A stretch of 35,506 nt of DNA from a virus. The stretch lies in IMG/VR virus record IMGVR_UViG_3300005841_000023, positions 1-35,506 of that record; one strand, 5' to 3'. Below are positions 2,404-8,278 of the stretch, piece by piece. Positions within the stretch are counted from its first letter, which is position 1. Each line of letters begins with the position of its first letter. The translations under genes and the position numbers were made by a program. The notes under the pieces are model-generated. The model was not told where the DNA came from and did no database searches. It saw only the letters and a list, made by a program, of their open reading frames with translations.

Positions 2404-3310
2404 GTATTACTCCATTTAATAATTGGTTTTCCACTATTTCAATACCAGCTAAACACATCAAATCATTAAAATCCGTGGCATTTTGTGAATATTCAACGTA
2501 TGTAAAGTCAGGGTAAACAACATGAGCCTTGATACTTTTAGCGGCTTCAATGGCTGAAAGTAAGCCCACATTCTTTCCTATTTTTAATTCGGTTTTTCTA
2601 TCATCATCGGCACAAATATGAATTTCTAAACTGGGATATTTATTTCGAATCCATTTAGCAATATTAATTAAATTATTTGCAGTGAAACAAATTAAAACCG
2701 GTGAACCAATCGCCTCATAAATACTGGCGCCAGTGGAATATCCCTCACAAAGACGTATAGGCGCTACAATTGATTCACCCATAGGGAGATACCCATTACG
2801 ATAACTTGAGCCTTCCTCAAATAGTTTAAACCCATCAGGTTGAATTGTTTGAAGAGATTGAAGGTTTCCAGAAAAATCATAAATAGGGATAACCAAATTA
2901 TCTCCATATTGTCGAATATAAATTGGCTTGATTTTTTTTCGAATCAAATAAGGATGGTCTAATGAGGGTTCTCGGCTTTTATCCCAAATATTTTGACAGC
3001 GAAGGAGTGCAACTTTTCGTTTTTCTTCTTTTTCTTTTTCAAATTTAGCAAGCTGAATTTTATATTGATTTTGCTCATGAAAAGTTAATTTATTAAAAGA
3101 TTTTGCAAACCATTTAACATGAATATCCCTACGCCAACATCCAAAAATAATCCCGATCCGATTTGGCAGTAAAATATAAAAACAACAATTTTTACGACAA
3201 AGAGAATCACTTTTAAAACGAACAATAGAACGACTATTTAAATCAATATAAGGTGGAAAAATATCATGACGAAGCATGGCATCTTTCACAGATGACAAAA
3301 AATCAAACAT
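2387..3310 (-). CDS. TOPRIM-domain phage primase
   Basis: This 307-residue protein has a C-terminal TOPRIM fold: the metal-binding Glu189 lies in LCEGYSTGASIYEA and the acidic motif is ADDD around 234-237. Before it, the WDKSREPSLDHPYLIRKKI and VIPIYDFSGNLQSLQTI segments are typical of phage and plasmid primases that pair with RepA-like helicases. The N-terminal third holds CRKNCC at 38-43, which may be part of a degenerate zinc site. The start is ATG at 3310 with AGAGGA close upstream. It is co-transcribed with the helicase and would lay primers for phage replication. Confidence 0.82.
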   Translation of the reverse strand: MFDFLSSVKDAMLRHDIFPPYIDLNSRSIVRFKSDSLCRKNCCFYILLPNRIGIIFGCWRRDIHVKWFAKSFNKLTFHEQNQYKIQLAKFEKEKEEKRKVALLRCQNIWDKSREPSLDHPYLIRKKIKPIYIRQYGDNLVIPIYDFSGNLQSLQTIQPDGFKLFEEGSSYRNGYLPMGESIVAPIRLCEGYSTGASIYEAIGSPVLICFTANNLINIAKWIRNKYPSLEIHICADDDRKTELKIGKNVGLLSAIEAAKSIKAHVVYPDFTYVEYSQNATDFNDLMCLAGIEIVENQLLNGVIHDGSK

Positions 3311-3329
3311 TATTTCCTCTTAATGAGCT

Positions 3330-3356
3330 AAGCGTTGCGAATCTTTCGCAAAGCTT
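3330..3356. promoter_or_regulatory. Inverted repeat upstream of the primase gene
   Basis: TTGCGAA (3335-3341) and TTCGCAA (3345-3351) are perfect arms around TCT. The arms extend to AAGC/GCTT with one mismatch, giving a 27-base near-palindrome. It lies 20 bases upstream of the primase start, just above its ribosome site, so it could be an operator or an mRNA hairpin that tunes primase expression. Confidence 0.5.
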
Positions 3357-3393
3357 TATAATTGCTCATGCAACAAAGTAATAAGGATATTCA

Positions 3394-3417
3394 AAGGGAA
3401 GGTTGACGCCTTCCCTT
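3394..3417 (-). terminator. Hairpin after the 40-residue gene; weak terminator or attenuator
   Basis: AAGGGAAGG and CCTTCCCTT form a perfect 9-bp stem with a 6-base loop. On the minus strand only a short TTTGAAT follows, so termination is likely to be partial. It stands just after the stop of the 40-residue gene and before the primase, and may reduce transcription into the replication genes or protect an mRNA end. Confidence 0.5.
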
Positions 3418-3420
3418 GTT

Positions 3421-3543
3421 TCATAAATTAAGTATATCAATTATCTCTGTTATTCGTCTTTCATATTCCTCTGCACTTAAATTTAAATGAGAAATTCTTC
3501 CTTTCTCAATCTCATATTCTTCCCATGGATTAATATTATTCAT
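3421..3543 (-). CDS. 40-residue protein, first leftward gene
   Basis: This small acidic helical protein begins MNNINPWEEYEIEKGRISHL and ends in EYERRITEIIDILNL. The ATG at 3543 has AAGGA seven bases upstream. It is the first gene after the leftward promoter candidate and is followed by the hairpin at 3394-3417. Position and size fit an early regulator or host-interaction peptide, but I recognise no family. Confidence 0.6.
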   Translation of the reverse strand: MNNINPWEEYEIEKGRISHLNLSAEEYERRITEIIDILNL

Positions 3544-3552
3544 TTAATCATC

Positions 3553-3606
3553 CTTGAATTAAACTTATTCAAGTGATACCATACATCTAATATCTATTAA
3601 AAACAA
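3553..3606. promoter_or_regulatory. Overlapping divergent early promoters with operator-like repeats
   Basis: Rightward: TTGAAT (3554-3559), a 17-base spacer and TACCAT (3577-3582), with an extended -10 TG at 3574-3575. Leftward: TTGTTT (3606-3601), a 17-base spacer and TATGGT (3583-3578). The two -10 elements are almost the same bases. The inverted repeat CTTGAAT-N7-ATTCAAG (3553-3573) covers the rightward -35. TGATACC at 3574-3580 repeats the half-site of the palindrome at 3774-3789. One bound protein could shut both directions. The boxes are moderate matches, so the call is an inference. Confidence 0.5.
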
Positions 3607-3618
3607 CAGGTAAAGATC

Positions 3619-3792
3619 ATGACGAGAAGAAAAACACTCACCCTAAGAATTCCTCCCGAAGTTTGGTCTTTTTTAAAGAAAAGAGCAGTAGATCATGAAA
3701 CATCTTTGAACGATGTCATTGTGGATCGACTCATTAAATTTAAAGATAAATGTGAAAAGAGATTGCATTCTAGTGATACCGTGGTATCATAA
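3619..3792 (+). CDS. Arc/Mnt-type ribbon-helix-helix DNA-binding protein
   Basis: This 57-residue protein begins MTRRKTLTLRIPPEVWSFL, with the beta-strand residues (TLTLRIP) that contact DNA in ribbon-helix-helix repressors. Two helices follow (EVWSFLKKRAVDHETSLND, then VIVDRLIKFKDKC). Length and layout match Arc-like phage regulators. The ATG at 3619 follows CAGGTAAAGATC, a weak ribosome site. It is the first rightward gene, directly after the divergent promoter region, and its own 3' end contains the TGATACC palindrome. Control of its own operon, and perhaps of the leftward one, is likely. Confidence 0.8.
   Translation: MTRRKTLTLRIPPEVWSFLKKRAVDHETSLNDVIVDRLIKFKDKCEKRLHSSDTVVS
3774..3789. 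promoter_or_regulatory. TGATACC-GT-GGTATCA operator candidate
   Basis: Perfect 7-base arms flank a 2-base centre at the very end of the ribbon-helix-helix gene. The same TGATACC half-site occurs at 3574-3580 over the divergent -10 elements. This is the spacing expected for a small dimeric or tetrameric repressor. No binding data are available to me. Confidence 0.5.
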
Positions 3793-3833
3793 CCTCATAA
3801 ACTTAATGAGGCAGATAACATGAGGAAAAATCA

Positions 3834-4034
3834 ATGACCCCAGCAGAGAGTCTAGCAATAACAAAATACGATTTATTTTATGAACAAAGAATGACAAAAG
3901 TAGAATGTGCGATTGAAGAACTAAAAGGTGATGTAAGAGAAATAAAAATAGATTTACGTTGGATGCTAGGATTAATGATTTCATTTAGCACCATCATGAT
4001 TGGAATTATGGCAAAAGGTTTTCACTGGATGTAA
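3834..4034 (+). CDS. Small tail-anchored membrane protein (XhlA- or holin-like layout)
   Basis: This 66-residue protein has an N-terminal charged, probably coiled-coil region (MTKVECAIEELKGDVREIKI) and one C-terminal membrane helix at about residues 43-61 (WMLGLMISFSTIMIGIMAKG). The arrangement resembles XhlA-type haemolysin/holin-associated proteins. It lies in the early rightward block, far from the endolysin on the map, so superinfection exclusion or a membrane anchor is equally possible. The ATG at 3834 has GAGGA upstream. It is one of the few membrane proteins here and hence a holin candidate. Confidence 0.6.
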   Translation: MTPAESLAITKYDLFYEQRMTKVECAIEELKGDVREIKIDLRWMLGLMISFSTIMIGIMAKGFHWM

Positions 4035-5218: not shown

Positions 5219-5665
5219 ATGCGATTTACGCCAGTTAGTGAAAATGATTTACAAGTTGCAAAATTATTACCAGAAGGAATTTATTCTTATCAAGTATTAA
5301 AGAGTGAGGAAAAAGTTTCCAATGCAGGAAATGAATATATTTCTCTCTTACTTAAAGTATGGGATGAAGACGGTAAAGAACATACTATATTTACCAATTT
5401 AGCATTAAAGCATTTATTAAAGCATTTTTGTGATGTAAACGACATGCAGGAGGAGTATAAAAGCGGAAACATATCCGAAGAAAAATTCTTAAATAAATCG
5501 GGTGGATCCGTTGTAATAGGGATAGAAGGCGAAAAGCCAAATCCTACAGGGGGAATGTATAGGGCTAAAAATATTGTGAAAGATTATGTGATTTTACCTG
5601 GATCAAAGTTAAAGCCCTTACCCAAGCCAAATGAAGATTTTTTAAATGATGAAATACCTTTTTGA
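5219..5665 (+). CDS. DUF669 family protein, likely ssDNA-binding partner of Sak4
   Basis: This 148-residue protein contains EGIYSYQVLKSEEKVSNAGN, LLLKVWDEDGKEHTIF and GMYRAKNIVKDYV, the pattern of DUF669 proteins that resemble OB-fold single-strand-binding partners. The C-terminus is acidic and ends NDEIPF, like the acidic tails of SSBs. It has an AAGGAG ribosome site. It follows the recombinase by three bases. The stop codon directly abuts the structured RNA at 5666-5770. Confidence 0.78.
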   Translation: MRFTPVSENDLQVAKLLPEGIYSYQVLKSEEKVSNAGNEYISLLLKVWDEDGKEHTIFTNLALKHLLKHFCDVNDMQEEYKSGNISEEKFLNKSGGSVVIGIEGEKPNPTGGMYRAKNIVKDYVILPGSKLKPLPKPNEDFLNDEIPF

Positions 5666-5770
5666 TTTGACAGGCGCGGCGTGGAGTAGCAGATCACGCT
5701 AGGGCTACAGTAGTGCGCACCCGATTCCCTGCTACAGGATATGCCAGTGCAAGTCTGGCCGTCTGTCAAA
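5666..5770 (+). ncRNA. GC-rich structured RNA candidate with pseudoknot and tRNA-like coaxial stack
   Basis: By my count 60 of 105 bases are G or C, in a distinctly AT-rich region. P1 is an 11-bp helix, 5666-5676 with 5760-5770 (one G-U pair). P2 is GCGTG 5679-5683 with CACGC 5695-5699. The P2 loop carries GTAGCAG (5686-5692), which is complementary to CTGCTAC (5729-5735) and would form a pseudoknot. P4 is GCCAG 5743-5747 with CTGGC 5755-5759 and a 7-base loop TGCAAGT, close to a tRNA T-loop, stacked directly on P1 as a T-arm stacks on an acceptor stem. No anticodon arm can be built. It fills the gap between the DUF669 stop and the ribosome site of the DUF2829 gene. It may be a free RNA or a cis-acting leader. 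Confidence 0.6.
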
Positions 5771-5786
5771 TAATTTAAGGATTAAT

Positions 5787-6161
5787 ATGAACTTCGACAA
5801 AGCACTTAAAGAAATGATGAATGGAAAAAAGATCCGTCGTAAAGAGTGGGTGCCTTTAACTCATTTACGTTATATGAACGGTGCAGTGGTAGCCTTCCAA
5901 GGGGAATATAAAGCCTTTTATGAAGATGCTAATATTCTCATTTCTACGGGGTGGCGCACTATTGATGGTGATGGAACCGAGATGAGTTTTGTCGAAGCCA
6001 TTGAAGAATTAAAAGCTAAAAAATGCATCACCAATAATGATATGGGTGAATCTTTTATGTTTATCGATAAAGATCAATTGGCAACTTGCACGCCAGTGCA
6101 ATTTGAATTTATGCCAACTTGGAAATGTTTAAATTCTAATGATTGGGAAATATTAAAGTGA
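5787..6161 (+). CDS. DUF2829 protein (Thoeris anti-defence Tad2 family)
   Basis: This 124-residue protein opens MNFDKALKEMMNGKKIRRKE, the typical DUF2829 start (F-x-x-AL...M..GKK..R..W). It ends NSNDWEILK, matching the family's closing DW motif. Some family members (Tad2) bind the cyclic ADP-ribose-type signals made by Thoeris ThsB and so block that defence. Residues 65-80 (MSFVEAIEELKAKKCI) look like a second, degenerate copy of the opening motif, so this version is longer than the minimal protein. The ribosome site AAGGA lies a few bases after the structured RNA. Anti-Thoeris activity is an inference from family membership. Confidence 0.72.
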   Translation: MNFDKALKEMMNGKKIRRKEWVPLTHLRYMNGAVVAFQGEYKAFYEDANILISTGWRTIDGDGTEMSFVEAIEELKAKKCITNNDMGESFMFIDKDQLATCTPVQFEFMPTWKCLNSNDWEILK

Positions 6162-7146: not shown

Positions 7147-7500
7147 ATGATTAAAGATTGGTGCGGAACATATTATTTAGATGAAAATAAAAATGCTATT
7201 CCCTGTTCAACAGAAGATTGGGCAAAACAAATTGAAGAAATGAAAAAAAATAAAACCAAACATGTTGGATATGAAAAGATTGATGGAAAAAGAATATCAA
7301 CAGTATGGGTTGGGTTGGATCATCAATGGGATGATAATGGGCAACCACTTATTTACGAAACAATGGTTTTTGATGGAGAAGCTTATGATATTTATTGTCA
7401 AAGATATTCCACTTGGCAAGAAGCAGAAGAAGGTCATAAGAAGGCTATTCAATGGGTAAAGGATGGATGTAAAGAGGAGGAAGAAGAAATAAATGAATGA
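7147..7500 (+). CDS. Conserved phage protein with VGLDHQW and YSTWQEAEEGHKKA motifs
   Basis: This 117-residue protein contains GTYYLDENKNAIPC at the start, STVWVGLDHQWDDNGQPLIY in the centre, ETMVFDGE and then RYSTWQEAEEGHKKAI. These are the marks of a widespread phage and prophage family of unknown function. I place the start at ATG 7147, just after the stop of the previous gene; an in-frame ATG at 7126 would give seven more residues but overlaps that gene. The acidic end overlaps DUF551 copy 3 by eight bases. Confidence 0.75.
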   Translation: MIKDWCGTYYLDENKNAIPCSTEDWAKQIEEMKKNKTKHVGYEKIDGKRISTVWVGLDHQWDDNGQPLIYETMVFDGEAYDIYCQRYSTWQEAEEGHKKAIQWVKDGCKEEEEEINE

Positions 7501-7741
7501 ATGGATACCAATAGATAAAAAATTACCTCGTCATGCAACGCATGTATTAGTTGTGACAAACAGAGGTGCGCAAGCGGTTGTTATTTTTATTGATAACAAA
7601 ATCGCAATGAACGAATTAAGAATGAAGGGTGTCGATGTTCCTAAATCTGAAGATGTAGGATTTTCATTTTGTTCACAAGAAAAGAATGGCGAGACTTTAA
7701 ATGGCGTAACGCATTGGATGTATTTACCGAGAGCCCCCTAA
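7493..7741 (+). CDS. DUF551 protein, copy 3
   Basis: This 82-residue protein begins MNEWIPIDKKLPRHATHVLV and ends VTHWMYLPRAP, where the usual MPLP is MYLP. GGAGGAAGAAG at the end of the previous gene provides the ribosome site. It is separated from copies 1 and 2 by two unrelated genes, and its centre differs from theirs. It ends in a TAATG overlap with the next gene. Confidence 0.78.
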   Translation: MNEWIPIDKKLPRHATHVLVVTNRGAQAVVIFIDNKIAMNELRMKGVDVPKSEDVGFSFCSQEKNGETLNGVTHWMYLPRAP

Positions 7742-8117: not shown

Positions 8118-8196
8118 TGGCAATAGCGTCTTATCACGCGGATGAGAAAGTTACCAACTAACTTAGATGACGTTTGGTCAATCCAAACTATTGCCG
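8118..8196 (+). ncRNA. tRNA-like cloverleaf with non-canonical loops
   Basis: GGCAATA (8119-8125) and TATTGCC (8189-8195) form a perfect 7-bp acceptor-like stem. Three hairpins lie inside: a 7-bp D-side hairpin (8129-8135 with 8141-8147, one G-U), an anticodon-side hairpin AAGTT/AACTT (8148-8152, 8160-8164) with loop ACCAACT, and a T-side hairpin GTTTG/CAAAC (8172-8176, 8184-8188) with loop GTCAATC. The T-side hairpin abuts the acceptor strand exactly as in tRNA. Against a working tRNA: base 33 is C rather than T, base 37 is C, base 54 is G, and there is no CCA end. If decoded as a tRNA, the anticodon would be CAA (Leu). It stands eight bases before tRNA-Gln. Confidence 0.55.
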
Positions 8197-8203
8197 GACA
8201 TAT

Positions 8204-8278
8204 TGAGGGATCTTCTAATGGTAGGAAAGCTGACTTTGACTCAGCGAATGATTGGTTCGATTCCATCTCCCTCAACCA
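8204..8278 (+). tRNA. tRNA-Gln, anticodon UUG, CCA encoded
   Basis: This 75-base cloverleaf has a TGAGGGA/TCCCTCA acceptor, a D-arm TTCT/GGAA with loop AATGGTA, an anticodon arm GCTGA/TCAGC with loop CTTTGAC (anticodon TTG at 8236-8238) and a T-loop TTCGATT, then discriminator A and CCA. The opening T with TC at positions 8-9 is typical of bacterial tRNA-Gln. One oddity is that the T-stem needs a bulged T (GATTGG facing CCATC). It would read CAA, the glutamine codon favoured by AT-rich phage genes. Confidence 0.88.

Follow-up and report, generated by a model that had tools for sequence, protein, structure and literature searches.

The sequence at positions 5666–5770 of the window (the whole 35.5-kb IMG/VR stretch analysed here, whose structural genes we take to be of the P22-like podovirus type) is, on comparative evidence, a structured RNA that belongs, as a divergent member, to a family of small RNAs widespread in phages. 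The family was previously unlisted and belongs in kind to the tRNA-like RNAs. Comparison of its members shows helices in a tRNA-like arrangement, in which a hypervariable and, in many members, probably pseudoknotted insert takes the place of the anticodon arm. As a whole, the element is best explained as the gene for a free phage-encoded tRNA-like RNA, and we consider this explanation probable. A first-pass annotation had proposed a new structured phage RNA at this site; a 91-member family, the match of a covariance model trained without the window, and covariation all support that proposal. The element and its surroundings are laid out as follows:

5219–5665, + strand: upstream gene in a Sak4-type recombination cassette, presumably DUF669-like by our reading, with no Pfam match; the element starts directly past its stop codon
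5669–5767, + strand: predicted core of the tRNA-like RNA element, as placed by the covariance model (32.9 bits, E = 4e-7, window outside the training set)
5665–5676, + strand: 5′ strand of the closing (acceptor-like) helix, 12 bp in the sequence, of which an 8-bp helix covaries in the family
5669–5676, + strand: family part of that strand, GACAGGCG, with four additional pairs outside
5677–5678, + strand: 2-nt linker CG (family: C in 90/91, G in 89/91)
5679–5699, + strand: D-arm-like hairpin GCGTG-GAGTAGCAGAT-CACGC, with an 11-nt loop (family: 8 nt, GACAGUGA)
5686–5692, + strand: D-like loop segment GTAGCAG, complementary to 5729–5735, a possible pseudoknot of the window member
5700–5742, + strand: hypervariable insert replacing the anticodon arm (74/91 family inserts have no detectable relative)
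5729–5735, + strand: CTGCTAC, putative partner of the D-like loop by complementarity
5743–5759, + strand: T-arm-like hairpin GCCAG-TGCAAGT-CTGGC (family loop TGCAATT)
5760–5771, + strand: 3′ strand of the closing helix, read from the sequence, continuous with the T-arm
5787–6161, + strand: downstream Tad2-like (DUF2829) gene, outside the RNA

What the first-pass annotation had read from the letters of this stretch holds on recounting. The GC-rich island contains 60 G+C within 105 nt, compared with 37.7% G+C for the window, and no equally GC-rich 105-nt stretch occurs elsewhere in the first 11 kb. The closing helix, given earlier as 11 bp, counts 12 bp with one G-U pair; the 5-bp hairpin is present, and its loop segment GTAGCAG is fully complementary to the downstream CTGCTAC; the 5-bp/7-nt arm abuts the closing helix with zero gap; and GCTACAG occurs twice, at 5704 and 5731. 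The boundaries also stand, with the stop codon TGA (5663–5665) on the 5′ side and an AAGGA ribosome site on the 3′ side. No + strand ORF of at least 50 aa in the ORF list spans the element. Its D-like loop, GAGUAGCAGAU, is 11 nt long and keeps the CAG of the family loop, and its T-like loop UGCAAGU is identical to the family UGCAAUU at six of seven positions. CCA is not encoded; the bases past 5767 are AAAT. Folding energy by itself is weak evidence for the element (MFE z = −1.7, with 14 of 200 shuffles equally stable), and the 7-bp pairing between D-like loop and insert has a p of about 0.016 against shuffles of the insert.

Relatives were found by way of a neighbouring gene and two DNA patterns. 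Searching the element region by blastn gave only chance-level matches in phages, mostly to the AT-rich end of the upstream gene, and none in plasmids, and the Tad2 and DUF669-like proteins served as bait without yielding useful relatives. The neighbouring Sak4-type ATPase did yield them: this gene (AAA_24, Sak4-like), two genes upstream of the element, retrieved 14 relatives at 70–85% identity, about half of which carry other GC-rich, structured, non-coding sequences past the DUF669-like stop codon. The motifs GCGGYG and GCC[GA]GTGCAA.TC[CT]GG are common to the window, L005 and L026, the last from the second scan. With the first DNA pattern, derived from the 5′ motif, some 30 intact copies were recovered. 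The second consisted of the D-like arm and the preceding base only, excluding the closing helix and T arm; it matched 108 stretches, and nearly all the new pattern loci score as members. The resulting family has 91 members, all from IMG/VR phage contigs except one, which comes from a gammaproteobacterial genome assembly; the phage contigs range from ∼33 kb to above 200 kb. In the GTDB genome set, the element is found on one phage-sized contig (L121) in that gammaproteobacterial assembly and in none of the 55 other genomes searched around it.

The first-pass annotation had called for a homologue search with a covariance model. We trained such a model on 22 sequences, leaving the window out, and ran it on the window with filters off. 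The window element is the top match (5669–5767) at 32.9 bits, with E = 4e-7 in this search and 9.5e-6 in 846 kb of phage sequence, values that are rough by the tool's own statement. Next in the window comes 8119–8195 beside a tRNA gene, at 19.5 bits on the + strand and 12.4 bits on the − strand; all other matches score at most 11.6 bits, at chance level. Because a model free of the window recovers the element at this E-value, the homologues are the decisive evidence for a structured RNA. The window element has the 8-bp closing helix, the CG linker, the 5-bp D-like arm and the stacked 5-bp/7-nt T-like arm by which members are recognised.

Members share a layout of an 8-bp closing helix, a 2-nt CG linker, a 5-bp arm with the 8-nt loop GACAGUGA, the insert, and a 5-bp/7-nt arm with the loop UGCAAUU that is stacked on the closing helix. 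In the 91-member alignment, 98.8% of cells are paired, and compensatory changes affecting both sides occur at 17 of the 18 pairs. Double-change cells number 290, against 55.7 in shuffles, and the covariation score is 0.568, against 0.148 in shuffles (0/500 shuffles reach either value); as this alignment was fitted to the model, its counts lean towards the structure. Free of that lean is an unfitted MAFFT alignment of the 22 sequences without the window, from which RNAalifold predicts the same structure and whose double changes are again reached in 0/500 shuffles. The covariation check that the first-pass annotation had suggested, run here as a shuffle test, is thus in favour of the fold. The closing helix varies freely (e.g., GCCACTCA/TGAGTGGC, GAATGCGG/CCGCATTC and TGACTCAG/CTGAGTCA), and both it and the T arm covary in members found by the second pattern, which contained neither. 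Covariation of the D-like stem, which that pattern partly fixed, rests mainly on the first set. The near-invariant unpaired positions are the CG linker, the 8-nt loop GACAGUGA, which was partly fixed by the search patterns, and the 7-nt loop UGCAAUU, which was fixed by none. Elements are GC-richer than their own locus in 83 of 91 cases, and 53 of 91 are nearly ORF-free, compared with 18% of random stretches.

The order of parts in the family (acceptor, 2-nt linker, D arm, insert, and a T arm running without a gap into the acceptor) is the topology of tRNA. The T-like arm keeps the equivalents of U54, C56 and A58, and its loop is canonical in some members (UUCGACU, for example). That T-loop is present in all five intact members with the D-loop CACGGUGA, which contains the GG of tRNAs, and in 1 of 87 otherwise (Fisher p = 1.2e-7); other D-loops go with UGYAAUU-type T-loops in all but one case. 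Across the aligned members, the D- and T-loops therefore vary jointly, as at the tRNA elbow, though one ancestral switch, or a small number of evolutionary events, may account for this coupling. At the counterpart of G19:C56, 85 members have G:C, two have G:U and one has A:U. Nine records (G015, G029, G035, G036, G037, G041, G044, G046 and G050) have same-strand tRNA-family matches 6–9 nt from members, counting both G044 and G046, which are near-identical phages, and several tRNA matches that are degenerate; in G050, a tRNA-Gln lies between two members. CCA stands one unpaired base past the helix in 9 of 91 members against a 1.2% background (p = 1e-6), and the other 82, the window included, do not encode it. 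U is found at −1 in 60 and G at +1 in 77 of the 91, and the 5′ flank tends to TTTAT|G.

The family thus shares with tRNA (RF00005) the acceptor, the 2-nt linker, the D arm, the acceptor-stacked T arm of 5 bp and 7 nt, elbow-type coupling, neighbours in arrays and, in some members, an encoded CCA. It differs from tRNA in its 8-bp acceptor, in the loops GACAGUGA and UGCAAUU in place of the tRNA GG and UUCRA, and in the variable insert of 29–163 nt; neither an anticodon arm with a 7-nt loop nor a tRNA-model match is detected at the elements by ARAGORN or Rfam. The tRNA mimic suggested in the first-pass annotation accordingly stands as a description of architecture: the acceptor and T arm resemble those of tRNA, the topology is that of tRNA, the D- and T-loops are coupled, and some members have tRNA operons as neighbours.

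Between the D-like and T-like arms, 74 of the 91 inserts have no relative at E 1e-3. Many appear, by eye and in a systematic scan, to fold into an H-type pseudoknot, the final strand of which stops a few bases short of the T arm. Pseudoknot scores of the inserts have a mean of 22.6; dinucleotide shuffles give 12.0 and mirrored sequences 17.3, and 20 of 86 inserts reach p <= 0.05. Since the scan made no comparison with nested structures, we regard the insert pseudoknot as a probable rather than proven family feature. The scan finds no pseudoknot of the family type in the window insert, where the enlarged D-like loop may itself knot with the insert. The first-pass annotation had described this loop–insert pairing, and a switch between two partners, and as family features both fail: a 7-bp pairing is reached by the window alone, other members keep the loop GACAGUGA, and many have their pseudoknots inside the insert. 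For the window element by itself, both the pairing and the switch are possible. A small number of inserts turn up again on other chassis, where the closing helix differs (L073, L169, L178 and L203), so insert and closing helix can evolve separately. L183 carries three whole or partial element copies within 1 kb (3002–3976, − strand), all with the same closing-helix sequence, two with the same insert and one with a different insert, which suggests duplication and exchange. In three members, the interior is replaced or followed by an ORF (L007 7420–7904, L063 2049–2369 and L093 1666–1785, − strand); that of L007 resembles an HNH homing endonuclease.

Other RNA-like sequences occur in the same arrays. 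A second unlisted family has the form TTTAT-GGCC-GACGATAC-(24–76 nt)-GGGAAAATA-GGCC, often followed by ACCA, in 22 distinct copies (e.g., L014 3557–3614); in two, the closing stem is GGGC/GCCC. Its records are L004, L005, L008, L012, L014, L032, L039, L048, L068, L074, L089, L098, L104, L182 and L193. We set aside a hammerhead reading of GACGATAC...GGGAAAATA: the U of CUGANGA is absent in most copies, and the family is unmatched in Rfam. L004 (∼3126–3193) and L005 (∼7587–7655) share a third recurring element, GGCAGCAAAT...ATTTGCTGCC, which encloses a hairpin. Sequences in L122 (1265–1332, − strand) and L007 (∼7350–7410) are tRNA-like, with a tRNA T arm and a shortened anticodon-arm loop; that of L122 matches the Rfam tRNA model at 42.7 bits and draws no ARAGORN call. 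In the window itself, the 77-nt sequence at 8119–8195 resembles a cloverleaf, closed by a helix of 8 bp (GGCAATAG/CTATTGCC) and with 5-nt loops; it ends eight bases before tRNA-Gln (8204–8278), and its match to the family model is mostly closing helix.

The main rival explanation, to which we assign a small but appreciable chance, holds that the element is a tRNA-like processing signal (‘punctuation’) in early phage mRNAs and that the excised RNA is functionless. Intergenic sites between co-oriented genes, tRNA-like boundaries and unconserved neighbours would all fit such a signal. However, cutting needs no invariant GACAGUGA loop, T-loop coupling, CG linker or pseudoknotted inserts, and copies within tRNA arrays would be redundant. 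It is unlikely that the element is a strongly decayed or intron-bearing tRNA gene, its anticodon arm interrupted by an insertion. The tRNA topology, the tRNA neighbours and some degenerate tRNAs in the same arrays would agree with this origin, but ARAGORN tRNA calls and Rfam tRNA matches at the elements number zero, the closing helix has 8 bp rather than the 7 of tRNA, compensatory changes in many phages point to selection rather than decay, and the inserts are too short and too varied for a group I intron. The design of tmRNA (SsrA), a tRNA-like domain plus pseudoknots with the anticodon arm absent, recalls the family, including the pseudoknots between the D and T parts, and an RNA of this type might enter or block the ribosome rescue pathway. 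We nonetheless find this improbable. Neither ARAGORN nor Rfam detects a tmRNA, and no G-U occurs at the third acceptor pair in any of the 91 members (CG 67, AU 10, GC 9, UA 3), which disfavours tmRNA kinship because the alanine identity element G3:U70 is then absent. The family also differs from tmRNA in its total length of ∼80–220 nt, its proper D-stem, the lack of a recognised tag, and its phage-borne, sometimes multi-copy genes.

Two further alternatives appear very improbable. One is the riboswitch-like leader of the DUF2829/Tad2 gene put forward in the first-pass annotation, with the GTAGC loop swapping between two GCTAC copies. The element does lie six bases ahead of a ribosome site and GCTACAG is present twice, but there is hardly a downstream gene that two members have in common (clustering of 81 downstream ORFs gives 73 clusters, none larger than 2), in close relatives that possess a Tad2-like gene the site ahead of it holds another RNA or no RNA, and the switching segment is unconserved. 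In a near relative, L006, no element is present directly past the DUF669-like gene, which argues that the element is gained or lost as cargo. The other, no more credible, is a self-cleaving ribozyme akin to twister-sister (RF02681), whose Rfam hairpin, with the loop UGCAAG, matches 5743–5759 at 13.6 bits. This match covers only one 17-nt hairpin (model positions 31–47 of 81) and falls far below the 34-bit cut-off, while the rest of the model, including the internal loop of the cleavage site, is unmatched. A T-loop is the better explanation for this loop, given its change to UUCGACU in family members.

Apart from that hairpin, Rfam returns chance-level snoRNA matches for the window element and nothing else, and no Rfam 15 family matches it or the strong members. 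Members searched by blastn have no match in 50,697 phage records (INPHARED) and a single chance-level match in 72,556 plasmid records (PLSDB). Open-access literature, with few subscription journals and almost no preprints covered, contains no description of the family that we could find. Bacterial Y RNAs (YrlA) and viral tRNA-like structures are likewise non-decoding RNAs built on a tRNA-like module; the present family differs from them in that it has no Rfam match and does not occupy the 3′ terminus of an RNA virus genome. It was apparently overlooked because its members lie among tRNA genes, vary in sequence internally, and are rare or absent in cultured phages.

The U at −1 and G at +1, the enrichment of CCA and the placement in tRNA operons make it likely that the element is matured by the tRNA machinery into a stable small RNA. 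In the mechanism that we propose, host tRNA-processing enzymes would cut the element out of a polycistronic phage transcript, with RNase P cleaving at U|G to set the 5′ boundary and the 3′ end being trimmed and, where CCA is not encoded, receiving it by addition, and the product would persist as a small, stable RNA. In the window, the copy is short and divergent for the family and has extra pairs beyond the family helix; it lacks the TTTAT leader and lies between two protein genes, not beside a tRNA. Pairs beyond the acceptor helix can disturb RNase P cleavage. Our best guess for the job of the RNA, and a tentative one, is that it engages a host tRNA-handling factor, a suggestion prompted only by the absence of an anticodon, the constancy of the elbow and the rapid evolution of the insert. 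The non-decoding RNA would occupy a host factor that handles tRNA via the elbow and the acceptor/T helix, and the fast-evolving knotted domain would set the specific effect or escape a host countermeasure.

The family suggests that many phages make a tRNA look-alike, and it opens to experiment the question of why phages have tRNA-like genes that are unable to decode. A tRNA chassis with an insert is a natural parallel to the artificial tRNA scaffolds that stabilise inserted RNAs. It is possible, though doubtful at present, that these elements form a new class of RNA effector, in which a constant, host-matured, tRNA-shaped chassis directs a fast-diversifying pseudoknotted domain at some target in the host, for instance a defence aimed at tRNA or the translation apparatus; a phage array could then hold several versions, together with other unlisted RNA families. 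If the insert is indeed an effector, the family would represent a new, RNA-made route of counter-defence or host takeover.
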